A stretch of 64,000 bases of DNA from Natronosporangium hydrolyticum (GTDB lineage Bacteria; Actinomycetota; Actinomycetes; Mycobacteriales; Micromonosporaceae). Under the pieces are notes generated by a model. That model was not told the origin of the DNA and did no database searches. It saw only the letters and a program-made list of their open reading frames with translations. Position 1 is the stretch's first letter, and every line of letters starts with the position of its first letter. The stretch is taken from assembly GCF_016925615.1 (NCBI RefSeq), contig NZ_CP070499.1:62001-126000 (forward strand), in the 5' to 3' direction. The position numbers and the translations under genes are program-made. Below are positions 41,353 to 62,191 of this stretch, one piece after another.

Positions 41353-41427
41353 TGGTTGGCCGGGGAGGGATCATGCGTACCGGAATGTCGGACTTATCCG
41401 GGTGCAAGATCCCTCCCCGGCCAACCA
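41353..41427. repeat. 75-bp hairpin repeat, copy A
   Basis: Imperfect palindrome whose arms (TGGTTGGCCGGGGAGGGATC and its complement) pair over 20 bases without mismatch, with an inner CCGGA/TCCGG pair. Two other 75-bp copies occur at 51423-51497 and 52705-52779. This one lies in the convergent spacer between the oligopeptidase gene and the sigma-like gene, 30 bases beyond the stop codon of the latter, and can serve as terminator for both. Confidence 0.85.
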
Positions 41428-49044: not shown

Positions 49045-49580
49045 GTCCGGGCCTCCCCACCCTCGGAGCCCCCGGCCGGCTGGCGTACCGCAGCGTTGCT
49101 GACCAGGTCGGACAGCCAAGGCCGGGCAGCCGGCGGCGGCTGCGTCGGCGGCGGGGCGGCGGGGACCAACTCGGCCGGCAACTGCGCCACCGGAAACCGC
49201 CCACCACGTTGCCGGGTGGCCCCGGGGGAGCGGAACGAATCCTCACCGAGGTACCCGTCCCGGGGCTGCACCAGCAGCCCCACCAGCGCCACCCCGGCCC
49301 GCAACGGATCCCGCCCTTCGATCCGGGTGTGCCGGGTGGCGTAGGTGAGCAGCAGCGGCAGCCCGATCCCGATGAGTAGATTCATCGGGCCGAAGTGCGC
49401 CCACAGGTCGCGGTAGGTGATCAGGAGGTAGACCGAGCCGACGAAGACCACCAGCTGAGTGATCGTGTACGGGCCCAGCGGCAGCGCCCAGTTGCTCCCG
49501 GGCCACTTCCGGATCAGGTACGGCTGACGGCGGCCCTTGGTGTAGGTCCGCCCGACCGAGACCGGGGCGCCGTCCTCCAT
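49041..49580 (-). CDS. VirB3/PrgI-like membrane protein
   Basis: 179-residue protein with two adjacent membrane segments (about residues 42-60, TQLVVFVGSVYLLIT; about 66-80, MNLLIGIGLPLLLTYA) and a hydrophilic C-terminal tail rich in Pro. Size, the hydrophobic pair near the N-terminus and position immediately before a VirB4-like gene match VirB3/PrgI-type inner-membrane subunits that dock VirB4. The start overlaps the upstream stop by one base (TGATG) and its stop overlaps the VirB4-like start by 4 bases. Confidence 0.7.
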   Translation of the reverse strand: MEDGAPVSVGRTYTKGRRQPYLIRKWPGSNWALPLGPYTITQLVVFVGSVYLLITYRDLWAHFGPMNLLIGIGLPLLLTYATRHTRIEGRDPLRAGVALVGLLVQPRDGYLGEDSFRSPGATRQRGGRFPVAQLPAELVPAAPPPTQPPPAARPWLSDLVSNAAVRQPAGGSEGGEART

Positions 49581-49846
49581 CAGTCGTCCACGACCGGCAG
49601 TTCCTCGCCGAAGAAGTCGGCGATGGACTCCACGTTGGTCAACACGAGGAAGACCAGCGCGGCACCGATACCGAAGATGATCGCCTTCTGCAGCCCGCCC
49701 TTCGACTTGACGATCAGAATCGTGCCGACCAGGACCACCAACACGAGGAAGATGATCGGCAGGGTGCTGGATAAGAAGTCCACCCAGCCCACAATCCAGG
49801 ACTGGGTCGGACTCTCCTGCGCTAGCGCAGGTAGCGATCCGGACAT
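49580..49846 (-). CDS. Small VirB2/TrbC-like double-pass membrane protein
   Basis: 88-residue protein with two membrane segments (LPIIFLVLVVLVGTILIV, about residues 29-46; IIFGIGAALVFLVLTNV, about 55-71) joined by a short KSKGGLQK loop and ending acidic (EELPVVDD). An N-terminal LPALAQ may be a cleavage region. This hairpin topology is that of pilin-like VirB2/TrbC subunits, in which case it would be the major channel or pilus subunit. It starts 3 bases after the TcpC-like gene. Confidence 0.68.
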   Translation of the reverse strand: MSGSLPALAQESPTQSWIVGWVDFLSSTLPIIFLVLVVLVGTILIVKSKGGLQKAIIFGIGAALVFLVLTNVESIADFFGEELPVVDD

Positions 49847-49849
49847 GGC

Positions 49850-50971
49850 CTAGCCTCCGTTCGAGCTCTCTGCCGAAGTTGTCGGGTCAGGGAAACCTGG
49901 TGCGCTGGGCTGACCGGTGTGCGGCTGCCCGTCGGGCAACTCCTGCACCGCGGTCCCCACCAGCGGATCGAGCGCAATCACTTCCCATCGCCCGCCGCGC
50001 ACACCGGCGGTCACCGGGTAGACCAGCGGCAACTGGTCGGCGTCGGTCGCCACCGTCACCAACAGCTGGGCAACCGTGCCATCGGCCGGCACCGGCGCCG
50101 CCAGCTCATCCCGGGCGCGCACCTCGGTGACGTCGACCTCCTGGTACGGCGGTGGGGTCAACGGCGCGATGTAGACGCCTGGGGCGACGTAGCGCTCCAG
50201 GTTCTCGCCACCGGTCAACATGCCGGCGAAGAACGACTCGAGGGTATGGCTCAGCTCGGTACCGCTGGCCGGCAGCGACACCGGATAAGGCTGCTCGTAC
50301 GGGTCGGAGCCGTCACCGGCGAGCGCCGGGGCCGGCACCTGCGCCGGCAGCGCGGCCGGCCGCCAGCCGTTGCACCCGCCACCCGCCGTCGGCACCATCG
50401 TTACCTGGAAAAACTGGGTCCCAGCGGAGCGCCAACGATCCTCATCGGCCAACTCATCAGTCGCCCCGCCCGGCTCATCATCCGGGTCGACCCGGACCCG
50501 GACCTCGGCCCCGATCAAATAGGCCCAGGCGCCGTCACCGGGTGTCACCGCGGCGGTGTAGGTGCCGGTGGCCTCGCGGACCCCCGGCTCGGGCGCTCCC
50601 CGGGGCAGGCCAGGCACGTCGGCGAGCAGCTCGGCGTCGCCGGCCAACCAGGCCGCCACCAGCAGCTCGGCGCAGCCACCAGGCGGCGCCACCAACGCCA
50701 GCGGCGGCTCTTCGGACTCGGCCTGGCTGCCACCGGCGCCCGGCACCCCGACACAGTTGACCAGGCCGAGTAGCAGCGCCACCACCAGCAGCCCCCACAG
50801 CCCGTACGCGAGCAGTCGGCTCAGCGTCGCCTGCATCCGGGTGTTGCCGGCGACCGACTCGGTCGCCGCCCACTGTTCGTCACCGGCGGAGCCGGACTCG
50901 TCCGGCCGCCGGTGCTGTTGGTTGCCAGCTGCGTCGACCCAGCTGGGCACACCCGGTCTGCCCACCGCCAC
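49850..50971 (-). CDS. TcpC/VirB8-like conjugal transfer protein, first gene of the secretion-like operon
   Basis: 373-residue protein with a cytoplasmic N-terminus, one membrane segment (LLAYGLWGLLVVALLLGLVNCVG, about residues 48-72) and an extracytoplasmic part with two NTF2-like halves (about 85-215 and 230-345), for example ELLVAAWLAGDAELLADVPG and SFFAGMLTGGENLERYV. This is the architecture of TcpC, the VirB8 equivalent of Gram-positive conjugation systems. The tail is disordered. GTG start, with AGGGAGG about 8 bases upstream. Confidence 0.72.
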   Translation of the reverse strand: MAVGRPGVPSWVDAAGNQQHRRPDESGSAGDEQWAATESVAGNTRMQATLSRLLAYGLWGLLVVALLLGLVNCVGVPGAGGSQAESEEPPLALVAPPGGCAELLVAAWLAGDAELLADVPGLPRGAPEPGVREATGTYTAAVTPGDGAWAYLIGAEVRVRVDPDDEPGGATDELADEDRWRSAGTQFFQVTMVPTAGGGCNGWRPAALPAQVPAPALAGDGSDPYEQPYPVSLPASGTELSHTLESFFAGMLTGGENLERYVAPGVYIAPLTPPPYQEVDVTEVRARDELAAPVPADGTVAQLLVTVATDADQLPLVYPVTAGVRGGRWEVIALDPLVGTAVQELPDGQPHTGQPSAPGFPDPTTSAESSNGG

Positions 50972-51422
50972 AGCTGGTGCCTCCCTAACACCTCGCTCGG
51001 CCCATACAGAACGCAGTTCGCGTACTGCATCACCCGACTACGCGCACCGCGCCGCCGCCATCGTCCGGCATCGGCGCCCCGGCCGCCACCATCCCGGACA
51101 CTCCGCCAGGGAGGGGCCGATCGGGCACGGACCGGATGGGGTCACTCTCTACCAGCGCATGTGGAGTGATCAAGCCGGCTGGGGGCCCTACTGTGTCTCC
51201 GATCACGGCGCTGACCGCGCTCCGTGAATCATCATTCACTCAAGTCGATCTTCAACCTAGGGGGATTGCCCGCGCTCGGGCTCGGGTCCCGCGCGGCGCC
51301 GCTCACCTGAGACGAACGAGGGCTACGAGGACCGTTTCGGTGGTCGCCCAGGCAACACGAATCGGCTATATGCCCTCTTTCGCCCACCTGCGGATGCCCG
51401 CGCCAGCATGCCTGCTACCTCT
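50972..51422. promoter_or_regulatory. Upstream region of the secretion-like operon
   Basis: 451 bp without a supported gene. It should hold the promoter of the minus-strand secretion-like operon. Bases about 51085-51290 are homologous to 52493-52690 (see repeat X). ORFs here lack ribosome sites and coding character. Confidence 0.5.
51085..51290. repeat. Repeat X, copy 1
   Basis: About 200 bp aligned at a near-constant offset of 1408-1410 bases with 52493-52690: shared words include CAGCG.A.GTGG, CTACTGTGTC, GACGCTGACCG-like and TCGATCTTCAACCT/TTGATCTTCACCCT. Identity is moderate by eye (roughly three quarters). It is the distal part of the secretion-operon upstream region. Confidence 0.7.
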
Positions 51423-51497
51423 TGGTTGGGTGGGGAGGGATCTTGTGCATGGATAAGTCGGATATTCCGGTGCGCAAGATCCCTCCCCACCCAACCA
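51423..51497. repeat. 75-bp hairpin repeat, copy B
   Basis: Arms TGGTTGGGTGGGGAGGGATC plus TTG pair perfectly over 23 bases with their complement at 51475-51497. It lies 21 bases beyond the stop of the truncated PKD-like remnant and can terminate the LP1 transcript. Same family as copies A and C. Confidence 0.85.
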
Positions 51498-51517
51498 TGT
51501 CGGGATCAACGCCCCCG

Positions 51518-51640
51518 TTAGTCGTCCACTAACACCGAGAGCCGGACGCCCGACCACCCTCCGGAGACGTCCGTTGACCGCCAGATCGCCATAACCACGC
51601 CGGACGTCAGCCACCGCATGCGAGGGCGACGTGTCAACAC
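51518..51640 (-). pseudogene. Truncated remnant of a PKD-like secreted protein gene
   Basis: A 40-codon frame begins with GTG overlapping the LP1 stop by 7 bases (GTGTTGA), exactly where the intact PKD-like genes begin with ATGCTGA in the other two modules. It opens V-L-T (the intact copies open M-L-T), contains a short hydrophobic stretch (WLTSGVVMAI) like the start of a signal peptide, and then stops after LSVLVDD. The intact partners are 316 and 350 residues. I read it as the 5' end of a partner gene, joined to 3' sequence by an internal deletion of about 0.9 kb. It could also be a small functional peptide gene. Confidence 0.55.
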
Positions 51641-52284
51641 GAGCCACTCGCTTTATCTTCCCAGCCGGATACCTGCCAACCTTCTTCGTTGCCGCCACGG
51701 CCGTCGTACCACACCGCGCTGATGATCGCGATTCGGCGATCGCCGGGCTCACCCGTTGGTTCGTTGGTTTCCCGGTCGACCGGCGTCCAGTCGGTCGCGT
51801 CGAGACAGTAGCTCAGCTCGACTTCTGGCACCGAGAAATCGTTGACGATGCGATCAAGATCGGCACCCTCAGGTCGCAGATAGTCCCAGGAGAACTCGCC
51901 CTCAAAGATGACCCCATCATTGTAGTTCTCGACGGACTCCGCTTGGAGTTCCTGGCTCAGCTCAGCTGCGGCGAATTCGAGTGGGCGTCCGCCGACCACC
52001 CTAATCGACTCAGCGACCTCGTAGGGTTCGCCTAGCCTGGCGTCCTCCACGTAGGCGTCGAAGAAGTCGTCAATGACCAACTGCGCCTCGTCGATCGCTT
52101 CCTGTTCCTCGGGGGTGAGGTCGAGGGTTTCCTCGTTGTCGGTCGGGTCGGCCGGGGGCGGGGAGGCCGGTGGGGGTGGTAGGCCGTCGTCATCGTCGCC
52201 GCAGGCGGTGAGTCCGGCCGCCAGCAGGGCGGCGGCGCTGATGGTGCCGACCGTACGAAGTAGCAGGGTTGCTCGTTGCGCCAC
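51634..52284 (-). CDS. Lipoprotein LP1 of the LP-PKD module
   Basis: 216-residue lipoprotein with signal peptide and lipobox GLTAC (Cys28), then an acidic and Pro-rich spacer (DDDDGLPPPPASPPPADP) and a folded domain. Family features seen in all three paralogues are CLDATDW near residue 165 and a C-terminal cysteine (GSC). The first 66 residues are identical to LP2 apart from one conservative change at the end, and the DNA of that part differs at about one base, whereas the remainder is only distantly similar. Function unknown; surface location is likely. Its PKD-like partner gene is reduced to a remnant. Confidence 0.82.
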   Translation of the reverse strand: MAQRATLLLRTVGTISAAALLAAGLTACGDDDDGLPPPPASPPPADPTDNEETLDLTPEEQEAIDEAQLVIDDFFDAYVEDARLGEPYEVAESIRVVGGRPLEFAAAELSQELQAESVENYNDGVIFEGEFSWDYLRPEGADLDRIVNDFSVPEVELSYCLDATDWTPVDRETNEPTGEPGDRRIAIISAVWYDGRGGNEEGWQVSGWEDKASGSC

Positions 52285-52470
52285 CGATCGCTCCTCTGAC
52301 TGTGGTGGGTCGGTGGGTGTCGCCGACCCAGTTACCGGTCGACGGGAGTTTAGCTACCGTGTGCGAGGTGCGGCATGCGGTTGGACAGTCGCATGTGCGT
52401 CAGTGCGGCATGTCTACGAGCGTTGCGGGGATGCGTTTGGTTGGTTGTAGGGGCCACTCCCATCCCCAGA
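52088..52470. repeat. Repeat U, copy 1 (LP1 N-terminal coding plus upstream DNA)
   Basis: Matches 54304-54686 at a constant offset of 2216 bases. Over bases 52101-52284 I count about one difference; upstream of the start codon the match continues with a few differences to about 52440 and then fades. It carries the shared promoter region and signal peptide of LP1 and LP2. Confidence 0.88.
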
Positions 52471-52492
52471 GGCAGGGAAAGCTCGGCGCCGC

Positions 52493-52690
52493 CACCGATC
52501 ACATCCCGGATAGTCCGTCAGGGACGTGCCGACCGGGAACGGGCCGGCAGAGACCTTTCTGCCAGCGTAGGTGGCGTGTAAGGCACCTGAGGGCTCTACT
52601 GTGTCGCGGATTACGACGCTGACCGCAGCCTTTGAACTGTCATTCGCTCAAGTTGATCTTCACCCTGAGGGATTGGGCTCGGTTCGGCCC
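52493..52690. repeat. Repeat X, copy 2
   Basis: Second copy of repeat X (see 51085-51290). It lies between hairpin copy C and repeat U copy 1. In the minus-strand direction each unit reads U, LP, PKD, hairpin, X. No gene is supported in the spacer 52285-52809; a promoter for LP1 must lie in its right part. Confidence 0.7.
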
Positions 52691-52704
52691 CGGGAAGCCC
52701 ACCT

Positions 52705-52779
52705 TGGTTGGCTGGGGAGGGATCTTGCGTACCGGAATGTCCGACATAGTCGGACGCAAGATCCCTCCCTGCCCAACCA
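52705..52779. repeat. 75-bp hairpin repeat, copy C
   Basis: Arms start TGGTTGGCTGGGGAGGGATC and pair with one or two mismatches with CTCCCTGCCCAACCA at the right end; the inner part (GTCCGAC/GTCGGAC) makes a second stem, so the whole 75 bases can fold as one long hairpin. It lies 31 bases beyond the stop codon of the PKD-like gene. Confidence 0.85.
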
Positions 52780-52809
52780 TGTGGGGATTGACGCCCCGTT
52801 AGTGCCGGG

Positions 52810-53862
52810 CTAGCGGCTGAGGACCTGGATCTCGTCGACTTGGTAGTCGAGCGTGGAGCCGACCTCGATCTCGAGTTCGCCATCCTCGTCGCCGTTGATC
52901 CACCACCAGACCCGCCAGGTCGTAATGGCGATGATCTCGTATGTGCCGCCCGGCTCGTGGCGGCTGGTTCGGCGGTAGACGTGGTGGCAGTCGCTGGGTG
53001 GGAGAAAGGTGTTACCGGGTGCCCAGGCGTCTCCGGGGCCCTCGCAGGTGACTGTCTGCCCGTCGCCCATGTCCCACTCGATGCGCAGCGGCTCGGCAAA
53101 GGCGTCGACCTGCTGGCCAACCTCCGGGGCCGCCGCCACCTCGTGTAGTGGCTCGTCGGGCCAGATGTTCCCGCCGGTGTCGGTCCACAGCCATACCGGC
53201 AGGTTGACCAGCGCGGACCCCTCAACCGGCGGCGCGGTCCTGATTTCGGGTCCCCGCATCCCCAGCGCGTTAACCGCGTCGGCCCACAACCCCGGAATGA
53301 CCGACGGCGTGCCGTTGTACCCTGGCGGGTTCTCTGGGCCAGCAATCATTTGCGAGTTGGCCCAGAGCCCAAAGGCATCTATGAAGAACGCCTCTTCCTC
53401 CTCATTCTCCTGTGGCGGGTAGCACCGAATCTCGAACGCGCGACTGTCCTCACCAGGGGCGACACCACGCGACGACCAATCCGGGTCAACCGGAACGTTT
53501 CGCGCTCTGGCGTAGCAATCCCAATCGCTGATGAACCACCACTCCCCGGCCTGACAGTGAACGCGCCAAGGGTTCGTGAGCGAATCCACTACGCGGTCTC
53601 CGTGCCTAACGCACCAAACCTCGACTCCGCCGCCACCGCCTGCCGGCTCGCCCACTTCAAAGGCGCCGCCCGCGGGTGGGACGCGGCCGGAAGCGCGTGG
53701 GTAGCAGACCTGCTCATCAGCGAGAACCACCAAATGGCCATCTGGGCAATCCACCTGGGCCCCGGCTGAGACCTGCTTCAAATCTATGCTTACGGCCAAG
53801 CCACTGACGACCAAAGCGACCAGAGGCGCGGTTGCGTAATGCTTTAAGGGCGTAGTCAGCAT
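52810..53862 (-). CDS. Secreted PKD-like protein 1 of the LP-PKD module
   Basis: 350-residue secreted protein with an N-terminal signal (TAPLVALVVSGLAVSI), a Cys-rich middle part (about residues 40-170, aromatic residues and several Cys) and a C-terminal PKD-like beta-sandwich: RIEWDMGDGQTVTC, then DCHHVYRR, GGTYEIIAITTW and a final DEIQVLSR. The conserved MRGPEI, LVNLPVWLWT and WDMGDG words are shared with the 55485 paralogue. ATG at 53862 overlaps the LP2 stop by 7 bases (ATGCTGA), so the longer frame from 53898 is not used. Function unknown; PKD-like folds bind glycans or proteins at the surface. Confidence 0.8.
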   Translation of the reverse strand: MLTTPLKHYATAPLVALVVSGLAVSIDLKQVSAGAQVDCPDGHLVVLADEQVCYPRASGRVPPAGGAFEVGEPAGGGGGVEVWCVRHGDRVVDSLTNPWRVHCQAGEWWFISDWDCYARARNVPVDPDWSSRGVAPGEDSRAFEIRCYPPQENEEEEAFFIDAFGLWANSQMIAGPENPPGYNGTPSVIPGLWADAVNALGMRGPEIRTAPPVEGSALVNLPVWLWTDTGGNIWPDEPLHEVAAAPEVGQQVDAFAEPLRIEWDMGDGQTVTCEGPGDAWAPGNTFLPPSDCHHVYRRTSRHEPGGTYEIIAITTWRVWWWINGDEDGELEIEVGSTLDYQVDEIQVLSR

Positions 53863-54500
53863 GCCCTTCCCGAATGCTCGCGCTCGACTACTCGCCAACC
53901 CTCCAGCCCAAGACCGCCCCAGTCATCGTGCCATGAAGCCGTAAACAGCCACTCCTCTCGGTGCCCGGCTTCGCTCGCCGGGTCTCGCGTCGCCGCGTCG
54001 ATCGCGACCCAGTCGGTGGCATCGACACAGAATAGAACGGTCACCTCAGGAACCCTGATGCCTTCTATCTCGTTCTCGAGGTCAACGGATTGGACGCTCA
54101 GGGCCTCCCAGGTCAGGTCGCCCTCGACCACCTGCCCTTCGCCCCACATCCCGACGATCTCGCGGCGCAACTCCTGCGGCAACAGCCCGTCGGCGTCTCG
54201 CTCTACATCTGAGAACAGTTCCTCGGCCTCTTCCGGAGCTGGCAGGTCCGCTGTCGAGACGGCGACATAGTTGCGAAGAAACTCGTCGATATGAGCGCGC
54301 GCTTCGTCGACTGCTTCCTGTTCCTCGGGGGTGAGGTCGAGGGTTTCCTCGTTGTCGGTCGGGTCGGCCGGGGGCGGGGAGGCCGGTGGGGGTGGTAGGC
54401 CGTCGTCGTCGTCGCCGCAGGCGGTGAGTCCGGCCGCCAGCAGGGCGGCGGCGCTGATGGTGCCGACCGTACGAAGTAGCAGGGTTGCTCGTTGCGCCAC
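53856..54500 (-). CDS. Lipoprotein LP2 of the LP-PKD module
   Basis: 214-residue lipoprotein with the same signal peptide, lipobox (GLTAC, Cys28) and acidic Pro-rich spacer as LP1, then a diverged domain. It has CVDATDW near residue 160 and ends in Cys (RAC). It is the upstream gene of the pair and is coupled to the PKD-like gene by the ATGCTGA overlap. The contrast between the near-identical N-terminal DNA and diverged C-terminal DNA relative to LP1 points to recent gene conversion of one half of the gene. Confidence 0.82.
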   Translation of the reverse strand: MAQRATLLLRTVGTISAAALLAAGLTACGDDDDGLPPPPASPPPADPTDNEETLDLTPEEQEAVDEARAHIDEFLRNYVAVSTADLPAPEEAEELFSDVERDADGLLPQELRREIVGMWGEGQVVEGDLTWEALSVQSVDLENEIEGIRVPEVTVLFCVDATDWVAIDAATRDPASEAGHREEWLFTASWHDDWGGLGLEGWRVVEREHSGRAC

Positions 54501-54686
54501 CGATCGCTCCTCTGACTGTCGTGGGTCGGTGGGTGTAGCCGACCCAGTTACCGGTCGACGGGAGTCTAGCTACCGTGTGCGAGGTTCGGCATGCGGTTGG
54601 ACAGTCGCATGTGCGTCAGTGCGGCAGGTCTACGAGCGATGCGGGGATGCGTGTGGCGGCCAGGGGGACCACTCCCATCCCCAAAT
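54304..54686. repeat. Repeat U, copy 2 (LP2 N-terminal coding plus upstream DNA)
   Basis: Second copy of the block described at 52088-52470 (offset 2216). The upstream part (54501-54686) is in the 364-bp divergent spacer between LP2 and LP3 and should contain the LP2 promoter. From 54687 to 54864, apart from the ribosome site GGGGAGGGCCGC before LP3, I see nothing nameable; it should contain the tad operon promoter. Confidence 0.88.
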
Positions 54687-54864
54687 GCGGAGGCAGCGCG
54701 CCGCCGCCCGGGGCAGCCGGTCCGGAATGAGGCGTGAATCACCGATTTCGGTAGCGCTCGGTCGGACGGTTGGTCGCCCTCGGTGCGCGTAGTGCGGTGA
54801 GGAGCACTGGCTGCGCCGCCCGGGCGCCGTTGGTGCTGGTCGCGGACCAACCGGGGAGGGCCGC

Positions 54865-55491
54865 ATGGCTGGCGGAACCGCACACGCCCAGCGACGTACG
54901 GGTGGCGTACGTCTGGGCGGGTTCGCGGCTGCGCTGCTGCTGGTCAGCGCCGTAGCCGTCGGCTGTGGTGAGGATTCCGAGTTCGAGTGGCCGGATGATC
55001 CGGTGCCCGATCCGGGGGCGACCGCCGATCCGGCGGTGACCGGGGCGACCGAGGAGATCCTGGCCACACTCGACGAGCTGCGCCGGGTTGAGGTCGCTGC
55101 CCAGGCGCAGCCGCGGCCGGCGCACGAGGCGCTGGACCAGTTCACCGACCTGCTCGCCGACCCGTTGTTGTCGTCGACCCTTTTTGAGCTGGAGATTCTT
55201 CACAATCGAGGGTTGGCCCGGCAGGGCGAGCCGTCGTGGCGGGCAGAGGTCGCCGAGTTGCGGTTGGACGACGAGCCGCCGGCCGCCACCGTGCGGGAGT
55301 GTCTGGACGCCAGCGACTGGCAGTTGGTGCAGGTCGGCAGTGGTCAGCCGGCCGGGGCCGACGGGTTGCCGGGGCGGTACCGCGCCGAGCCGCATCTGAT
55401 CGAGTTTGCCGCGATCCTGGTTGAGGGTCGATGGTTATTTGCGGAGGCCCACCGGGCAGAGGTTGATCAGGAAGGGGACGGCCCATGCTGA
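54865..55491 (+). CDS. Lipoprotein LP3, first gene of the tad pilus operon
   Basis: 208-residue lipoprotein with a signal peptide and probable lipidated Cys34 in VAVGCGEDSE. After an acidic Pro-rich spacer (EWPDDPVPDPGATADP) comes a helical part and a C-terminal domain with ECLDASDW (about residue 150), the same motif as in LP1 and LP2, and a terminal Cys (GPC). The N-terminal half is not similar to LP1/LP2 beyond composition. The stop overlaps the next start by 7 bases (ATGCTGA). Being first in the tad operon, it may be an accessory surface lipoprotein of the pilus. Confidence 0.82.
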   Translation: MAGGTAHAQRRTGGVRLGGFAAALLLVSAVAVGCGEDSEFEWPDDPVPDPGATADPAVTGATEEILATLDELRRVEVAAQAQPRPAHEALDQFTDLLADPLLSSTLFELEILHNRGLARQGEPSWRAEVAELRLDDEPPAATVRECLDASDWQLVQVGSGQPAGADGLPGRYRAEPHLIEFAAILVEGRWLFAEAHRAEVDQEGDGPC

Positions 55492-56435
55492 CGGCTCGCG
55501 TAGGTGCAGGTCGGCGGTGGTGGCTGGGGTCGGTGGTGGCCGCCGCGGCGGTCGTCCTCGCGTTGCTGCCGGCGGCGCCGGCCGTGGCCCAGCCCGGCTG
55601 CGACTGGCAGAACCATACCCACAATGGTGACGAGGTGTGGGTATGGACCTGCGAGGACGGCGGCGGCGGTCCGGGTGGTGGCGGCACCGGTGAGTGGGTC
55701 TGCACCACCAATGTGCAGGGTCAGGACCAGCAGGTGCCGTGCATCCACTCGACCTTCGGATGGTTCACCGACATCCATGGTGGCTGCTATATCAGCGCGG
55801 CGTCACCGCAGCCGTCGGAGGGCAGCGACGCCTGGGAGGGCAACGACCCGTCGGACGGGGTCGTTTACGACGCCTACTGCTTCGGCACCGAGGGGGTGGA
55901 TGGCAGTCCGTTCATCCACCATCCGACGACGATTTTTCTGGACGCGACCGAGGGCGTCTTCGCCGACCTGCTGGAGCGGGCGATCGGCATGTTGCCGCTG
56001 CGGGGGCCGGATATCCAGCTGGCGCCGTCGCCGGAGGGGGCCGGGTTGGTTGGCCTGCCGGTGTGGATGTGGACCCCGGAGACCGAGTCGACGTGGGGGG
56101 AGGCCGCGGTGTCGCTGGAGGCGTTGGGCCTCGTCCTGAATGTGCGGGCGAATGGCGAGCAGATCCGGTGGGACATGGGGGACGGCACCGAGCGGATCTG
56201 TCGCACCCCAGGTACGCCGTACGAACCCTCGTTCGGCGCCGAGTACTCCGACTGTGGCCACGTCTACGCGGAGCCGTCCCGGGATCAGCCCGGTGGCCGG
56301 TACACCATCACCGCGACCACCGACTGGCTGATCGAGTGGCACATCGAGGGGACGATCATTAGTGGGGAGGAGCGGACCACCCGCACCTCGACCGAGAGCG
56401 TCCGGATCAACGAACTACAGGTGGTGACCTCATGA
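55485..56435 (+). CDS. Secreted PKD-like protein 2, tad operon
   Basis: 316-residue secreted protein. The signal peptide (WWLGSVVAAAAVVLALLPAA, ending AVAQP, about residues 12-37) is followed by a Cys/Trp-rich part with a Gly-rich stretch and a C-terminal PKD-like fold: IRWDMGDGTERIC, DCGHVYAEPSRDQPGGRYTIT and a final INELQVVTS. LRGPDI, LVGLPVWMWT and WDMGDG align with the paralogue at 52810. ATG at 55485 overlaps the LP3 stop by 7 bases and its own stop overlaps the SAF-domain gene by 4 bases (ATGA), so it is an integral part of the pilus operon. Confidence 0.85.
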   Translation: MLTARVGAGRRWWLGSVVAAAAVVLALLPAAPAVAQPGCDWQNHTHNGDEVWVWTCEDGGGGPGGGGTGEWVCTTNVQGQDQQVPCIHSTFGWFTDIHGGCYISAASPQPSEGSDAWEGNDPSDGVVYDAYCFGTEGVDGSPFIHHPTTIFLDATEGVFADLLERAIGMLPLRGPDIQLAPSPEGAGLVGLPVWMWTPETESTWGEAAVSLEALGLVLNVRANGEQIRWDMGDGTERICRTPGTPYEPSFGAEYSDCGHVYAEPSRDQPGGRYTITATTDWLIEWHIEGTIISGEERTTRTSTESVRINELQVVTS

Positions 56436-57103
56436 CCAGTGTTGCCGCACCCCCGGAGGGGTACGCGGTGGCAGGCCCGACCGACGCGCCCCGGCAGGTA
56501 CGGCAGCGGCACATCCGCCGCGGTTGGGTCGGGGTCGGGGTGTTGGCGATCGTGCTCGCCGCGCTCGGCTCCGCGACGCTGTTCCGGGCGATCGGCCCGT
56601 CGCAGGAGTATCTGGCGGTGACGCAGGATGTGCCGGTCGGCACCCAGTTGACCTCCGACCATCTGACCATCGTCCGGTTGAATAACGCCCCCGGGTTGAC
56701 GCCGGTCTCGGTCGGCGACGCCGAGCAGGTGATCGGTTCGTACGCGGCGGTGCCGCTCGCCTCGGGGACGTTGCTGTCGTTGAGTCAGGTCACCGAGGAG
56801 CGGGTGCCGGGGCCGGGCGAACAGCTGTTGGCGATCAACATGCCCGCTAACCGGCTGCCCGGCGACGTGATCCGGGCCGGGCATCCGGTGCTGCTGGTCG
56901 CCACCAGCAATCAGATCAATCCGGACCCCGAGGAGGAGCCGCGTACCTTCACCGCCCGGGTGCATGAGCTGCGTCCGGGGGAGGGGCGCGGCGACGACAT
57001 GGTGGTCAGTCTGGTCGTGCCGGAGCGGGACGGTGCCCAGGTGGCGGCGTTGGCAGCGGCGGGCCGGTTGACTGTGGTGTTGGTGTCGGCCGGTGGCTCA
57101 TGA
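56432..57103 (+). CDS. cpaB: CpaB/RcpC-like SAF domain pilus assembly protein
   Basis: 223-residue protein with an N-terminal membrane segment (VGVGVLAIVLAALGSATLF, about residues 33-51) and an extracytoplasmic SAF domain (about 65-130) with YLAVTQDVPVGTQLTSDHLT and AAVPLASGTLLSLSQVT. In Tad systems this subunit helps pilus extrusion and may contact peptidoglycan. Start and stop overlap with neighbours (ATGA on both sides). Confidence 0.82.
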   Translation: MTSVAAPPEGYAVAGPTDAPRQVRQRHIRRGWVGVGVLAIVLAALGSATLFRAIGPSQEYLAVTQDVPVGTQLTSDHLTIVRLNNAPGLTPVSVGDAEQVIGSYAAVPLASGTLLSLSQVTEERVPGPGEQLLAINMPANRLPGDVIRAGHPVLLVATSNQINPDPEEEPRTFTARVHELRPGEGRGDDMVVSLVVPERDGAQVAALAAAGRLTVVLVSAGGS

Positions 57104-57852
57104 TCGCTCTGGTCTCGGCGAAGGGCAGCCCTGGCGTAACCGTCAGCGGGCTGGCCTTCGCGTTGACCTGGTCGGGCCGCACTTTGTTGGTGGAGGCCGA
57201 TCCGGCGGGCGGCGATGTCCTCTCCGGATATCTACAGGGCTCGTTGGATGCGCAGCGTGGCCTGGCGCAGCTGGCGGTGGCCGAGCTGCGGGGCCGGTTG
57301 CGGGACGAGTTCGAGCGGCAGTTGGTGGATCTGGCCGCGCCGCGCCGGCAGCGGCTGCTGTTGCCGGGGCTGCGGGATCCGGCGCAGGCGGCGACGGTGG
57401 CGCCGGTGTGGCCGGCGATCGCCGACTTTCTCCGGCAGCTCGCCGAGGACGGTTCGGTGATCGTCGACTGTGGTCGCCTCACCGCCCCGCACTTCGGTTG
57501 GCCGTTGCTGCACGCCGCCGACCAGGTGCTGCTGGTGGTGCGCGGCACATTGAGCTCGGTGTCGCATGCGGTGCCGGCGGTCGGGGTGCTGCGCAAGGAG
57601 CAGGCGGAGCGGGGCGGCCCGGACCGGCTGGGGTTGCTGGTGGTGGATACCGGCCCGTACCCGGCGGCGGAGGTGGCGGCTCGGCTGCAGGTGGACCTGG
57701 CGGCGGTGCTGCCGGCCGACCAGCGCAGCGCCCGGGTGCTCAGCTCCGGGGGTCAGCTTCATCTTCGGTCGCCGTTGCTGCGGTCAGCAGCGGCGACGCA
57801 GCAGATCATGGCGTCGAACAGAGAGGTTGTTGATGGCACCCGAGCGGGTTAA
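57100..57852 (+). CDS. tadZ: TadZ/CpaE-like ATPase-fold protein with degenerate Walker A
   Basis: 250-residue MinD/ParA-fold protein that localises the pilus machinery. The N-terminal loop reads SAKGSPGVTVSGLAFAL, keeping the signature Lys of the deviant Walker A but having Val where the P-loop Lys is expected; LLVEADPAGGDVLSGYL provides a normal Walker A' aspartate. ATP hydrolysis may therefore be lost. Other blocks are SVIVDCGRLTAP (Walker B-like) and LLVVRGTLSSV. ATG at 57100 overlaps the SAF-domain gene stop. Its 3' end overlaps tadA by 20 bases. Confidence 0.82.
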   Translation: MIALVSAKGSPGVTVSGLAFALTWSGRTLLVEADPAGGDVLSGYLQGSLDAQRGLAQLAVAELRGRLRDEFERQLVDLAAPRRQRLLLPGLRDPAQAATVAPVWPAIADFLRQLAEDGSVIVDCGRLTAPHFGWPLLHAADQVLLVVRGTLSSVSHAVPAVGVLRKEQAERGGPDRLGLLVVDTGPYPAAEVAARLQVDLAAVLPADQRSARVLSSGGQLHLRSPLLRSAAATQQIMASNREVVDGTRAG

Positions 57853-59437
57853 CGGTTCGCCGCCGGTGTGGCAGACGTCCGCGCCGCCCAGGCCGCCGGT
57901 GCCGCCGCAGCCGGGCCGGCCGGCAGCTGCGCCGCCCGGGCCGCCGCCGCAGCAGCAGGCGCCGCCGCAGCAGCAGGCGCCGCCGGCTGGGCAGCACCCG
58001 TCGGCTCCGCCGCAGTACCAGCCGCCGCCACCGCACCAGCCGCATCCGGCGCAGCCTCCGTCACCGGCGGCGCAGCTGCCGGTGGTGGTGGATTACGCCA
58101 CGGTGCGGCGGCTGCACCAGCAGGTCGCCGACGAGCTGGCCGAGCGGATGCGGACCGCCGGACCCGGCGCCGAGCAGGCGCTCGGCGAGCAGCTGGTCAG
58201 CAAGCATGTCAAGGCGTACGTGGACAGTGAGCGGCTGCGGGGGCAGTTCGTCAGCGACGCCGACGAGGCGGCGCTGGCCGACGCGGTCGCCGGTGAGCTG
58301 GTCGGGTTGGGCCGGTTGAAGGTGCTGCTGGCTGATCCGCTGGTCGAGAACATCCACATTCTCGGCTGTGACCGGGTCCGGGTGGAGCGCAGCGATGGCT
58401 CCATCGTGGAGGCGCCGCCGGTCGCCGACAGCGACGAGGAGTTGCTGCGGATGTTGCAGACCCTGGCGCGGCAGGGGCCGGGTACGGAACGCTCGCTGAC
58501 CACCGCCAAGCCGTTGCTGGACCGGGAGCTGGTCGACGGCAGCCGGCTCGCCGCCGCCGACCTGATCACCCCGCGGCCGTACGCGGCGATCCGGCGGCAC
58601 CGGTACCGCGACATCGGCTTGGAGCAGCTGGTGGAGCTGGGGACGCTGGACGAGTTGACCTGCAAGTTCCTCGCCGCCGCGGTAGACGCCCGCTGCAACA
58701 TCATGATCGCCGGGCCGGCGGACGCGGGGAAGACCACCCTGCTGCGCGCGCTCGCCTCCCGGATCCCCAGCCACGAGGCGTACGTGGTGCTGGAGGAGTC
58801 GCGGGAGCTGGGGCTGCACCAGACCGGCCGGCACCCGTGGGCGATGAGCTTCGAGGCTCGGCAGGGGCACGGTGAACGCGGCGCCGACGGCCGGTATGAC
58901 GGGCAGATCACCCTCGATGAGCTGATCGCCTTCGCGCTGCGGATGTCCGCGCCCCGGATCCTCGTCGGGGAGGTGCGCAGCCACGAGATCGTGGCGATGC
59001 TGAAGGCGATGCGGTCCAGCCTCGGGTCGATGTGCACCATCCACACCCGGTCGGCGAGCGCGGTGATGGACCGGATCGTGGAGCTGGCGCTCTCTCACGG
59101 CTCCGGGATGTCTGCGGAGCTGGCGCAGCGGATGGCGGCCGGCTCGCTCGACGTGATCGTCTACCTGACGCTGCGGGACGAGCGGCAGCGCGGCGGGGCG
59201 AAGCTGCGCTACGTCTCCAACATCTTGGAGGTGCACGACAGTTTCCACGCCGGGCATGTGGTCAGCACCGAGGTGTTCGGCTCCGGCCCGGACGGTCGGG
59301 CGATCCCGAAGCATCTGCCCGAGCGGCTCTTCGACCAGCTGCTGCTCGCCGGGTACGACGCCCGGGTGTTGGTGCCGTACATCGAGGCGAAGCGGGGCGC
59401 GTGGCGCTCCAGCGGGGCCCGGGTGGCGCCGCGATGA
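57833..59437 (+). CDS. tadA: TadA/CpaF secretion ATPase
   Basis: 534-residue type II/IV secretion ATPase powering the Tad pilus. Residues 1-85 are Pro/Gln-rich and disordered. The N-terminal domain has LGRLKVLLADPLVENIHILGCDRVRVER. The Walker A is IAGPADAGKTTLLRAL (about residues 293-308), the Asp box follows (YVVLEESRELGL), and the Walker B/His box is RILVGEVRSHE and GSMCTIHTRSASA. ATG at 57833 is chosen with AGAGAGG just upstream; the longer frame is antisense-like overlap with tadZ. Confidence 0.93.
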   Translation: MAPERVNGSPPVWQTSAPPRPPVPPQPGRPAAAPPGPPPQQQAPPQQQAPPAGQHPSAPPQYQPPPPHQPHPAQPPSPAAQLPVVVDYATVRRLHQQVADELAERMRTAGPGAEQALGEQLVSKHVKAYVDSERLRGQFVSDADEAALADAVAGELVGLGRLKVLLADPLVENIHILGCDRVRVERSDGSIVEAPPVADSDEELLRMLQTLARQGPGTERSLTTAKPLLDRELVDGSRLAAADLITPRPYAAIRRHRYRDIGLEQLVELGTLDELTCKFLAAAVDARCNIMIAGPADAGKTTLLRALASRIPSHEAYVVLEESRELGLHQTGRHPWAMSFEARQGHGERGADGRYDGQITLDELIAFALRMSAPRILVGEVRSHEIVAMLKAMRSSLGSMCTIHTRSASAVMDRIVELALSHGSGMSAELAQRMAAGSLDVIVYLTLRDERQRGGAKLRYVSNILEVHDSFHAGHVVSTEVFGSGPDGRAIPKHLPERLFDQLLLAGYDARVLVPYIEAKRGAWRSSGARVAPR

Positions 59438-60321
59438 TTCTGCTCGACGCGTACGTGGCGGTGCTGGCGGCGTTGGCCGTCGGCGGGGTCTTCCTGATCG
59501 TCGCCGGGCTCGCTGGTGGCCCGGCGCCGACCACGCCGTCGGACGCGCCGATCGTGGGCCGGGTGCGCCGGTTCTGGCGGGATCTGGGCGGCACCCCGGC
59601 GGAGCGGCGGACCCGGCAGGTGTTGCTGGTCGCCGCCGCAGTGGTGGCGGTGCTGGTGTTCGTGCTGACCGGGGTGCCGGCGGTGGCGCTGCTCGCGGGG
59701 GTGGCGGTGCCCGGGGTGCCGTGGCTGTGGGGCGTCGGGAAGCGGGAGCAGCGGGGGATCGAGCGGGCGGAGGCGCTGGGGGACTGGACCCGCCGCCTGA
59801 AAGACCAGCTCTCCACCGGCGCCGGGCTGATGTCGGCGATCGTCAACACCACCGAGGCGGCCCCGCCGATCATCGCCGAGGAGGTGGGGGCGCTCGCCGC
59901 CCGGCTGCGCACCGGGGCCGACCCGAAGCGGGCGCTGCACCGGTTCGCCGAAGAGCTGGACGATCCGATCGCCGAGCAGGTGGTGGCGGCGCTGTTGCTG
60001 CATCTGCAGGACCGCGGTGAGCATCTGGCGGACGTCCTGGCGGCGATCGCCGCCGACGCCGGCAAGCAGGTGTCGATCCGCCGGGAGGTGCACGCGAAGC
60101 GGACCCAGCCGCGGATCACGGTCCGGTTCATGACCGTCTTCGGGCTGGTCATCGCGGCGATCCTGGCCCGGGGAGAGCTGATCGAGGCGTACACCAGCGC
60201 CCGCGGTCAGCTGGTGCTGCTGGTGCTCGCCAGCGCCTTCGTGGCGACCCTGGTGTGGGTGCGCTCGTTGTCCCGGCCGCCGGCGCAGCCCCGGTTTCTG
60301 CGGCCACCGGAGGTGGCGTGA
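59434..60321 (+). CDS. tadB: TadB, pilus inner-membrane platform protein
   Basis: 295-residue protein of the GspF-like T2SS platform family. Two N-terminal membrane segments (YVAVLAALAVGGVFLIVAG; VLLVAAAVVAVLVFVLTGVPAVALLAGVAVPGV) are followed by the cytoplasmic GspF domain (WTRRLKDQLSTGAGLMSAI; VAALLLHLQDRGEHLADVLAAIA) and C-terminal segments. It forms with TadC the base that TadA acts on. ATGA overlap with tadA. Confidence 0.88.
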   Translation: MILLDAYVAVLAALAVGGVFLIVAGLAGGPAPTTPSDAPIVGRVRRFWRDLGGTPAERRTRQVLLVAAAVVAVLVFVLTGVPAVALLAGVAVPGVPWLWGVGKREQRGIERAEALGDWTRRLKDQLSTGAGLMSAIVNTTEAAPPIIAEEVGALAARLRTGADPKRALHRFAEELDDPIAEQVVAALLLHLQDRGEHLADVLAAIAADAGKQVSIRREVHAKRTQPRITVRFMTVFGLVIAAILARGELIEAYTSARGQLVLLVLASAFVATLVWVRSLSRPPAQPRFLRPPEVA

Positions 60322-61193
60322 TGGACTTCGTGCTCGTCGGGTCGTTGCTGGTGGGCGCGCTCGCCGCGGCCGGCGTCATGATCCTGGTCAACGAGTTGCT
60401 GCCGGCGACCCCGGCGTTGGGCCCGGCGCTCCGGCGACTGCACCCGGACCTGCCGGCGGTTACGAGCCGGAGCGTGGCCGCCCGGCGGCTGCTGCGCCGG
60501 GTGCCGGTGCCGCTGGAGAGCCTGGCGCTGCTGGGTTACACGCCTGGCCGCTACTTCCGGAACCTGCTCGGCGCGGCGATGTTCGGGTTGGCGGTGCCGG
60601 TGGTGATCGGGTTCATGCTGGCCACCTCGGGCCGGCAGCTGCCGGGGCCGGTGGTGGCGGCCGGGTTGGCGGGCAGCCTGGCGGTGGCGGCCTTCTTCGC
60701 GGTGTTGGCTCACGCCGACATCCAGTTCCGGGCGCGCAAGATCCGCCGGGAGTTCCGGCAGGTGGTGGCGGTCTACCTGTCGTTGGTGGCGATGGAGCGG
60801 GGGTCCGGACACGGCACTGTGGAGTCGCTGGAGCGGGCCGCCGAGGTGGGCGATGGTTGGGTGATCCGGCGGATCCGGGAGACGCTGCTGCGGGCGCGGG
60901 CCCATCACCGGCCGCCGTGGGATGAGCTGACCGGGTTGGGGCACGAGATCGGGGTGCCGGAGCTGAGCGACGTCGGTCAGATCATGCAGGCCGCCGGCCA
61001 GTCCGGGGCGCAGGTGAATCGGACCCTGCTGGAACGGGCCGAGTCGCTGCGGGATCAGATCCGCACCGACGCGCTCGCCAAGGCGGAGGCGACCACCGGC
61101 AAGCTGGAGATCCCCGGGGCGGTGCTGCTGTTCATCTTGGCCGCCTTTGTGATCTATCCGATCACCCAGCGTGTCTACATAGGTATTAGTTAG
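60321..61193 (+). CDS. tadC: TadC, pilus inner-membrane platform protein
   Basis: 290-residue GspF-family protein, second platform subunit. Membrane segments at about residues 3-24, 83-103 and 110-128, then the cytoplasmic domain (EFRQVVAVYLSLVAMERGSG; ELSDVGQIMQAAGQSGAQVNRTLLERAESLRDQ) and a C-terminal segment (IPGAVLLFILAAFVIYPI). The start overlaps the tadB stop by one base (TGATG), so the longer frame from 60255 is rejected. Confidence 0.88.
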   Translation: MDFVLVGSLLVGALAAAGVMILVNELLPATPALGPALRRLHPDLPAVTSRSVAARRLLRRVPVPLESLALLGYTPGRYFRNLLGAAMFGLAVPVVIGFMLATSGRQLPGPVVAAGLAGSLAVAAFFAVLAHADIQFRARKIRREFRQVVAVYLSLVAMERGSGHGTVESLERAAEVGDGWVIRRIRETLLRARAHHRPPWDELTGLGHEIGVPELSDVGQIMQAAGQSGAQVNRTLLERAESLRDQIRTDALAKAEATTGKLEIPGAVLLFILAAFVIYPITQRVYIGIS

Positions 61194-61209
61194 TCGATCG
61201 GAGTCCGCA

Positions 61210-61404
61210 ATGTACCGCTTATCCAACCAGCTGGCGCACCGGGTGCGTACCGCGATCAGTCAGGGTGACCGTGGCGAGTTCGGGCCGATGGCCTACGCGA
61301 TCATGGTCTCGGCGATGGTGCTGCTGGCGTTGGCGGTGGTGCTCTGGGGTGAGGGCATCGCCAACGAATTCATGGATCGGGTCCCCTCGGGCGGGGGTAG
61401 CTGA
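61210..61404 (+). CDS. Flp-type pilin-like small membrane protein
   Basis: 64-residue peptide with a basic N-terminus, a processing-like stretch (DRGEFGPMAYAIMVSAMVLLALAVVLW) and one membrane segment (about residues 28-46). A Gly/Glu near the start of the hydrophobic segment resembles the G/XXXXEF-type prepilin cleavage region (here GEFGPMAYAIMVS). Position between tadC and tadE fits a Flp pilin, but the typical conserved Glu5/Tyr pair is not clear, so a TadE-like minor pilin is the alternative. A GGAG ribosome site lies at 61200. Confidence 0.7.
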   Translation: MYRLSNQLAHRVRTAISQGDRGEFGPMAYAIMVSAMVLLALAVVLWGEGIANEFMDRVPSGGGS

Positions 61405-61406
61405 CC

Positions 61407-61772
61407 ATGTCCACGCGGGACCGCGGCGGCGGCGGCATCGAGATGGCGATCATCTTGCCGCTGCTGCTGTTCTGCGTCTTCGCCGTCGCCCATCTGGGCA
61501 TGTACTACCTCGCCCAGCAGGCCGCGCTGTCGGTGGCGCAGGTGGCGGTCGAGGGGGAGCGGGGCTGGCTCGCCGAACCCGGCGCGGGCCAGCAGCGGGC
61601 GGAGAACTTCCTCGCCCAGTTGCCGGAGGTGCTGACCGGCACCCAGATCAGCGTGACCAACGACGGGGAGCAGGTGACCGCCACCGTCACCGCCGACACG
61701 GTGACGGTGATCCCGTGGCTGAACCACACCGTGAGCCAGACGGCGTCGGCCCCGGTGGAGCGGTTGACATGA
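61407..61772 (+). CDS. tadE: TadE-like pseudopilin 1
   Basis: 121-residue TadE family protein. The N-terminal membrane segment (IEMAIILPLLLFCVFAVAHLGMYYL, about residues 10-34) starts with the family Glu after Gly-Gly-Ile, as in the prepilin-like TadE signature; the remainder is an extracytoplasmic beta-rich part (QISVTNDGEQVTATVTADTVTV). Two bases separate it from the Flp-like gene and it overlaps the next gene by 4 bases (ATGA). Confidence 0.85.
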   Translation: MSTRDRGGGGIEMAIILPLLLFCVFAVAHLGMYYLAQQAALSVAQVAVEGERGWLAEPGAGQQRAENFLAQLPEVLTGTQISVTNDGEQVTATVTADTVTVIPWLNHTVSQTASAPVERLT

Positions 61773-62191
61773 GTCGGCAACGCGGTTCGGCGGCGCTGGA
61801 GATGGCGGTCATCATGCCGCTGTTCGTGGTGCTGTTCACGACCGCGGTGGTGCTCGGGCGTACCGGACACGCGATCAGCGCGGTGGAGATGGCCGCCTAC
61901 GACGGGGCGCGGACCGCGTCGCTGGCCCGGGACGCCGGCACCGCGCAGGTGCAGGCACAGGCGACCGTCACCGAACGACTCTCCGACCGGGGGTACGCCT
62001 GCGTGGGTGGCCCGGAGGTGGTGGTGGACACCAGCGGCTTCGCCCAGGATGTCGGCGAGCCGGCATCGGTCACGGTCACCGTGACCTGCCGGGTCAGCTT
62101 CGCCGACATCGACCTGCTCGGGGTGCCCGCCGACCAGCGGATGTCCGCCAGCTTTACCTCGCCGCTCGACCAGTACCGGATCCGGGGGTGA
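61769..62191 (+). CDS. TadE-like pseudopilin 2
   Basis: 140-residue TadE-like protein with an N-terminal segment GSAALEMAVIMPLFVVLFTTAVVLGRTGHA (residues about 6-34), the Glu in the expected place, and an extracytoplasmic domain with AAYDGARTASLARDAG and two Cys (GYACVGGPE; VTVTCRVSF) that may form a disulfide. ATGA overlap upstream and GTGA overlap downstream. With the previous gene it supplies the two minor pseudopilins of the system. Confidence 0.85.
   Translation: MSRQRGSAALEMAVIMPLFVVLFTTAVVLGRTGHAISAVEMAAYDGARTASLARDAGTAQVQAQATVTERLSDRGYACVGGPEVVVDTSGFAQDVGEPASVTVTVTCRVSFADIDLLGVPADQRMSASFTSPLDQYRIRG

Follow-up and report, generated by a model that had tools for sequence, protein, structure and literature searches.

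Background

Neighbouring lipoprotein paralogues make up the lpl cluster of Staphylococcus aureus (PMC4470592), and actinobacterial Tad/Flp loci are known as CpaB-CpaE-CpaF-TadBC-TadE arrays; the text of a paper on the tad genes of Micrococcus luteus contains neither 'PKD' nor 'lipoprotein' (PMC8467076). Here we describe a locus that partly resembles both systems. It lies in a stretch of 64,000 nucleotides (the window; positions 62,001 to 126,000 of contig NZ_CP070499.1) of the Natronosporangium hydrolyticum genome (G000; 5.70 Mb, single contig), where two lipoprotein (LP) genes, LPa and LPb, precede a minus-strand operon for a type IV secretion system (T4SS). LPa is coupled with PKDa, a gene for a PKD-like protein, and LPb stands without such a partner. 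An earlier note on this DNA had interpreted the region as a single tandem duplication of an LP-PKD module with subsequent decay of one copy.

We moderately favour another explanation, in which LPa and LPb are old LP-PKD paralogues that underwent a recent exchange of their 5' parts, and in which the LP-PKD pair would act as an accessory surface pair of Tad and T4SS machines. The story of duplication and decay is thereby corrected: adjacent repeats of unequal age would reflect exchange between old paralogues. As in the lpl cluster, lipoprotein paralogues are neighbours here, whereas the members of the present group are LP-PKD pairs tied to Tad or T4SS genes, with one recent exchange tract that concerns a single pair only.

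Repeated parts of unequal divergence

LPa (53856..54500, minus strand; LP2 of the earlier note) and LPb (51634..52284, minus; formerly LP1) both contain the lipobox motif LLAAGLTAC, read directly from the sequence, which identifies them as bacterial lipoproteins. LPa (lipobox LTAC) has a predicted NTF2-like fold and a C-terminal Cys, and LPb is an intact gene ending in Cys-stop. PKDa (52810..53862, minus; formerly PKD1) encodes a secreted Cys-rich protein, and its ATG overlaps the LPa stop in the string ATGCTGA.

Three kinds of repeat connect the two units. U2 (54299..54656, minus), which comprises the promoter/leader, signal peptide, lipobox and linker codons of LPa, matches U1 (52083..52440, minus), the leader preceding LPb, with 97% identity over 358 bp, or 95% over 383 bp when the upstream edge is included, at an offset of 2216. 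The non-coding block X2 (52483..52694, minus) is 73.7% identical over 198 bp to X1 (51071..51286, minus), situated upstream of the T4SS operon, at an offset of 1408-1412. Hairpins C (52705..52779) and B (51423..51497), both copies of a 77-bp palindromic repeat, are 78% alike, their common flank included. All of these repeats are collinear and far beyond chance (E 1e-179, 1e-28 and 1e-18 for U, X and hairpin), and at the thresholds used both U and X are found at only two sites in the 5.7-Mb genome. The repeats are thus real and placed as the earlier note had described, its minus-strand order and U offset included; the additional DNA that it reported near hairpin B is present as well. It measures about 136 bp (51287..51422) and separates hairpin B from X1, where the other unit has about 10 bp.

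What had been overlooked is that the U match reaches only to about codon 67 of the lipoprotein gene and stops there abruptly. Codons 1-67 of LPa and LPb are 98.0% identical in nucleotides and 95.5% at third positions; from codon 68 to the end, the values are 48.5% for nucleotides, 37.8% for amino acids and 32.9% for third positions, the last compared with a random expectation of 30.2%. The drop is completed within a few codons. A break this sharp, from near-identical to saturated sequence within one gene, is what segmental gene conversion is expected to leave. Tandem duplication would leave all parts similarly diverged, and here U is 98% identical, X about 74% and the LP body 48.5% with saturated third positions. 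A single event is insufficient to produce adjacent segments of such different divergence, unless constraint differs greatly among them. In the simplest reading, U would represent a recent 5' exchange by segmental gene conversion between old paralogues, in one direction or the other.

One might object that U was kept identical by selection on a common regulatory and signal sequence, since it includes the leader and the signal peptide. Selection of this kind would hardly preserve 95.5% of third positions up to codon 67 and leave them random immediately after it, and the other LP paralogues of this genome do not have U; we regard the objection as very improbable. A more serious alternative is that of the earlier note: one U-LP-PKD-hairpin-X unit was duplicated in tandem and most of the second PKD gene was deleted, after which conversion or constraint maintained U and the LP body evolved unusually fast. 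It accounts for the collinearity of all parts in both units, for the flank ACTAACGGGG common to both hairpins, and for the position of X1 by the T4SS operon and X2 between the units, which is where a duplication would place them. It has difficulty with LP body third positions that are saturated while non-coding X retains 74% identity and U 98%, and with the fact that LPa is nearer to a lipoprotein of another genome than to LPb. All in all we consider it unlikely, while granting it a real chance.

Ancient separation of the two LP bodies, as assumed under the exchange that we favour, is consistent with comparison to the other members of the genus. Our sample of the genus comprises three genomes, namely G000, G001 (metagenome-assembled genome Dino_bin41, labelled Micromonosporaceae) and G002. 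Between G000 and G001, third-position identity amounts to 61-68% for T4SS genes, to 49% for PKDa and to 39.7% for the LPa body. These positions are less diverged than those of LPa and LPb, so LPa and LPb separated no later than the two species did. In the phylogenetic tree, LPa clusters with the G001 lipoprotein (support 81/79).

LPb and the presumed PKD remnant

In the LP bodies, identity between LPa and LPb is 56% at codon positions 1 and 2 and 33% at position 3, which indicates that both are under protein constraint and that LPb is not decaying. By this pattern, LPb is an intact gene under selection and not a decayed copy.

The earlier note had recognized a 123-bp remnant of a PKD gene in the spacer downstream of LPb (51511..51633, minus). 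We searched for it by blastn, tblastn, Smith-Waterman alignment with shuffles, and two profile hidden Markov models with shuffled and real controls. DNA similarity of the spacer to the PKD genes tested did not rise above shuffles. A profile of PKD proteins of the genus found a P-x-W-L-W stretch with 3.3 bits, equalled by 5 of 500 shuffles and 10 of 1805 real control pieces; a wider PKD profile gave 1.7 bits, equalled by 112 of the 1805 control pieces. With a weak profile signal that 0.6-6% of control pieces can match (p ~0.006-0.01 for the genus profile, 0.06 for the wider one), the remnant is unproven. The end of LPb provides another hint. The two LP-PKD pairs of the window share one arrangement, in which the PKD start overlaps the final LP codons in ATGCTGA; the Cys-stop of LPb reads GTGTTGA at this place, which looks like a relic of the LP/PKD overlap. 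Loss of a PKD gene by LPb is plausible on these grounds.

The spacer bears on two of the competing explanations. The weak P-x-WLW match and the parallel between GTGTTGA and ATGCTGA speak for tandem duplication, and the failure of the wider profile to single out the spacer speaks against it. Alternatively, LPb might have a different origin, as a separate lipoprotein gene that entered the interval from PKDa to the T4SS operon, never had a PKD partner at this place and later received the leader of LPa. Such an insertion would fit a spacer without PKD sequence above chance at the nucleotide level, as well as the lack of the whole LPb unit in G001. It would leave unexplained why X and the hairpin flank are common to both units, why LPb ends in an apparent overlap relic, and why all other lipoproteins found in G000 are followed by a PKD gene; we find it rather improbable. 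As for the single duplication with decay, three levels of divergence, an intact LPb, a weak remnant and dispersed hairpins all count against the earlier claim.

We use the name PKD-like only, because PKDa scores 12.8 bits against Pfam PKD_4, below the cut-off of 27, and retains the WDMGDG...Y...T motifs of PKD repeats. The PKD protein of the third pair in the window (PKDp, below) has no PKD_4 match. Curated family names were not obtained for the LP and PKD proteins of the window either.

LP-PKD pairs in Tad loci

A third LP-PKD pair (54865-56435), inverted and also missed in the earlier note, heads a Tad operon on the plus strand. Its lipoprotein gene LPp (54865..55491, plus) is oriented divergently to LPa, with 28-32% identity to LPa and LPb, and has an orthologue in G001 (52%). 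PKDp (55485..56435, plus) overlaps LPp by ATGCTGA and is 37% identical to PKDa over 168 amino acids (E 2e-26). The operon continues with genes for CpaB/SAF, CpaE-like, CpaF (T2SSE), TadB and TadC (T2SSF) and TadE (56432..62191, plus), where the CpaE-like protein is named by its position and by the gene order that it shares with the Tad locus of G000 at 1.12 Mb.

The PKD-like gene matches seven places in G000, two in the window and the others at 1.12, 2.12, 3.49, 3.76 and 5.05 Mb, and a lipoprotein gene lies directly upstream in 7/7. Further, it was matched in 244/355 Micromonosporaceae genomes. Among loci examined outside the genus, SAF/CpaB and CpaE follow the PKD-like gene immediately in 27/27, and a recognizable lipoprotein precedes it in 15/27. 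By its linkage to cpaB, cpaE and cpaF the pair belongs among Tad locus components, and the constant presence of Tad genes downstream makes it look like the ancestral head of Tad loci. Like the known actinobacterial Tad/Flp loci, those of the window, G000 at 1.12 Mb, G001 and G002 possess CpaB, here with LP-PKD directly upstream of SAF/CpaB. Nothing specific on LP-PKD at Tad loci was found in the literature, and the two genes make up an undescribed family.

Within the genus the pair is less stationary. A genus-specific clade (100/100) unites PKDa with the PKD of G001, three orphan G000 copies and one G002 copy. The Tad locus of G000 at 1.12 Mb is orthologous to that on contig C156 of G002, as documented by the patatin-like protein (78%), CpaE (71%) and CpaF (85%); at these loci, identity is only 26% for the LPs and 29% for the PKDs, which fall into different clades. 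With matching neighbours on the outside, the pair was probably replaced together. The neighbouring genes of the two loci span 60-85% identity. Another G002 pair is located inside a Tad operon and has its closest G000 relative in the orphan at 3.76 Mb. The idea of a multiplying two-gene surface module, put forward in the earlier note, is supported by the joint occurrence of LP and PKD and by the replacement of the pair, in a broader form than originally meant.

It is tempting to go further and to see in LP-PKD a swappable surface cassette of Tad pili, which in this genus would move as a unit among Tad loci, orphan sites and a conjugative T4SS. The leader U would then serve recombination as a handle, so that lipoproteins with different faces can use one type of promoter and signal. 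We regard this extension as doubtful.

The pair next to the type IV secretion system

The minus-strand operon that follows LPb is, by its gene content, assigned to the T4SS of Gram-positive type. Its first gene (49850..50971, minus) is called TcpC/VirB8-like by position only, having no family match; TrbC/VirB2 (49580-49846, minus) and TcpE (49041-49580, minus) score below the curated cut-off, and VirB4 AAA_10 (46489-49119, minus) and an M23 peptidase of the operon above it. A tRNA-Ser(GCT) was called by ARAGORN at 45209-45294 (minus), inside the VirB6-like gene (44681-46492), and is likely a false call or else a curious overlap.

A search of GTDB contigs for relatives by VirB4 led to one locus only, that of G001. 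There, the T4SS operon is preceded by a full-length PKD gene and an LP, with 119 bp from the PKD stop to the TcpC start; this interval harbors no X, hairpin or LPb, X is absent from G001, and the PKD-T4SS junction is interior to its contig. The earlier note had proposed that a full PKD gene beside the T4SS in relatives would support deletion in the decayed unit. A full gene does exist in G001, and it is the orthologue of PKDa (61% amino acid identity; tree support 100/97). The orthology means that LP-PKD adjoined the T4SS before the species split, and it does not discriminate between loss of a second PKD gene and arrival of a unit without PKD. In G002 and G076 a T4SS is present without the upstream pair, and LP-PKD therefore probably joined the T4SS in the common ancestor of G000 and G001. 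The operon of G076, a member of another genus, is a related one (VirB4 63%, TcpC-like 41%) and lies without LP-PKD on a 190-kb contig, C2.

Predicted fold and possible function

The AlphaFold model of LPa reaches a mean predicted local distance difference test (pLDDT) score of 79.7, exceeding 90 through most of the body. Helices are predicted at residues 58-82, 89-102 and 106-120, with six strands after them, an arrangement that places LPa in the NTF2-like superfamily. Foldseek matches include PARC6, TraM of plasmid T4SS, Tim44, DotI and VirB8/CagV (E 8.5e-5 to 1e-3, TMt up to 0.72). The best of them are scattered over the NTF2 superfamily, which points to similarity of fold and not to family membership. 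The PKD model (pLDDT 38.5) is too poor for a fold search and unusable, and a sequence search of the PDB with PKDa and the TcpC-like protein gave no match.

LPa resembles the VirB8/TcpC/TraM subunits in its predicted NTF2-like fold, and the pair stands beside a TcpE/TrbC/VirB4 operon in two species. In contrast to VirB8/TcpC, the LP is a single-domain protein with a lipobox, without a transmembrane helix and without a sequence match, and does not qualify as a member of that family. Gram-positive VirB8-like proteins have a transmembrane segment (PMC11753425).

From synteny and fold we think it most likely that LP-PKD proteins are accessory envelope parts of Tad pili, copies of which were lent to the T4SS. 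An undescribed surface protein pair would then accompany Tad genes across Micromonosporaceae and, in one genus, spread, be replaced as a pair and settle also beside a conjugation machine. The pair offers candidate parts for envelope passage or adhesion to the study of monoderm actinobacteria, whose pilus parts of this kind are poorly known.

A possible history of the locus

We suggest the following course of events. LPa-PKDa and LPb would be neighbouring members of an old LP-PKD family whose pairs normally head Tad operons in Micromonosporaceae. In the ancestor of G000 and G001, one pair would have been placed beside the conjugative T4SS operon, where it is seen in both genomes. In G000, a second unit without PKD came to lie between the LPa-PKDa pair and the T4SS operon, the LP bodies of LPa and LPb having separated long ago; LPb may formerly have had a PKD partner, as the overlap relic at its Cys-stop and the trace of P-x-WLW in the spacer faintly hint. 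In a recent step, a tract of some 360-385 bp, which runs from the promoter/leader through signal peptide, lipobox and linker up to codon 67, would have been copied from one unit to the other, and the sharp breakpoint suggests gene conversion or unequal exchange between direct repeats. The resulting lipoproteins can be pictured as NTF2-like domains tethered outside the membrane, with a secreted PKD-like partner. Together they would most likely assist Tad pili at the envelope stage and, where they lie beside the T4SS, that machine too. LPb would use the same expression and export signals as LPa and present a different NTF2 face.

Several points weigh against this proposal. The approximately unbiased (AU) test does not reject sisterhood of LPa and LPb (p-AU 0.114), and the two may stem from an old local duplication. 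X, at 74%, shows an intermediate divergence that has no explanation unless X is constrained or was also exchanged. At LP codon 63 the G001 contig switches to the interior of a truncated hemC, possibly through an assembly fault, and only three genomes of the genus were compared. Finally, the connection of LP-PKD to pili or T4SS is drawn from linkage and a predicted fold. The hemC junction of G001 falls in the codon region at which the U match of the window stops, and may be an assembly fault or a real rearrangement.

Non-coding repeats and palindromes

The X blocks (51071-51286 and 52483-52694) are non-coding and yet 74% alike, adjoining coding sequence that is saturated. Their mismatches are distributed 19/15/22 among codon positions, without codon-phase bias, and a coding role of X was rejected. 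A structured RNA was rejected too, with fold z-scores of -2.0 to +1.8 and disagreement between the two copies. An Rfam scan of the window yielded no match, and a scan of the repeat region for sigma-70 promoters and intrinsic terminators found nothing exceeding shuffles.

Hairpins B and C belong to a family of 77-bp palindromes (TTGGTTGG...GATCTTGCGTAC...GTACGCAAGATC...CCAACCAA) with about 40 sites in G000 and a few in G001 and G002; none was detected in seven other Micromonosporaceae genomes checked. With that many copies genome-wide, hairpins were dismissed as marks specific to the units. Genes around 25 copies were called by a simple purpose-made gene caller: all of the copies are intergenic, and the genes that flank them are convergent in 14 cases, tandem in 10 and divergent in 1. 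The palindromes mark gene 3' ends and not the LP-PKD module. In being dispersed intergenic copies at gene 3' ends, they are like repetitive extragenic palindromic (REP) sequences, from which they differ by a genus-specific sequence and by having no Rfam match at the gathering score. By informal count, a hairpin occurs within about 350 bp of 3/6 LP-PKD loci of G000. A third copy in the window lies at 41353-41427, and like B and C it is a near-perfect palindrome of REP-like or bidirectional-terminator-like appearance.

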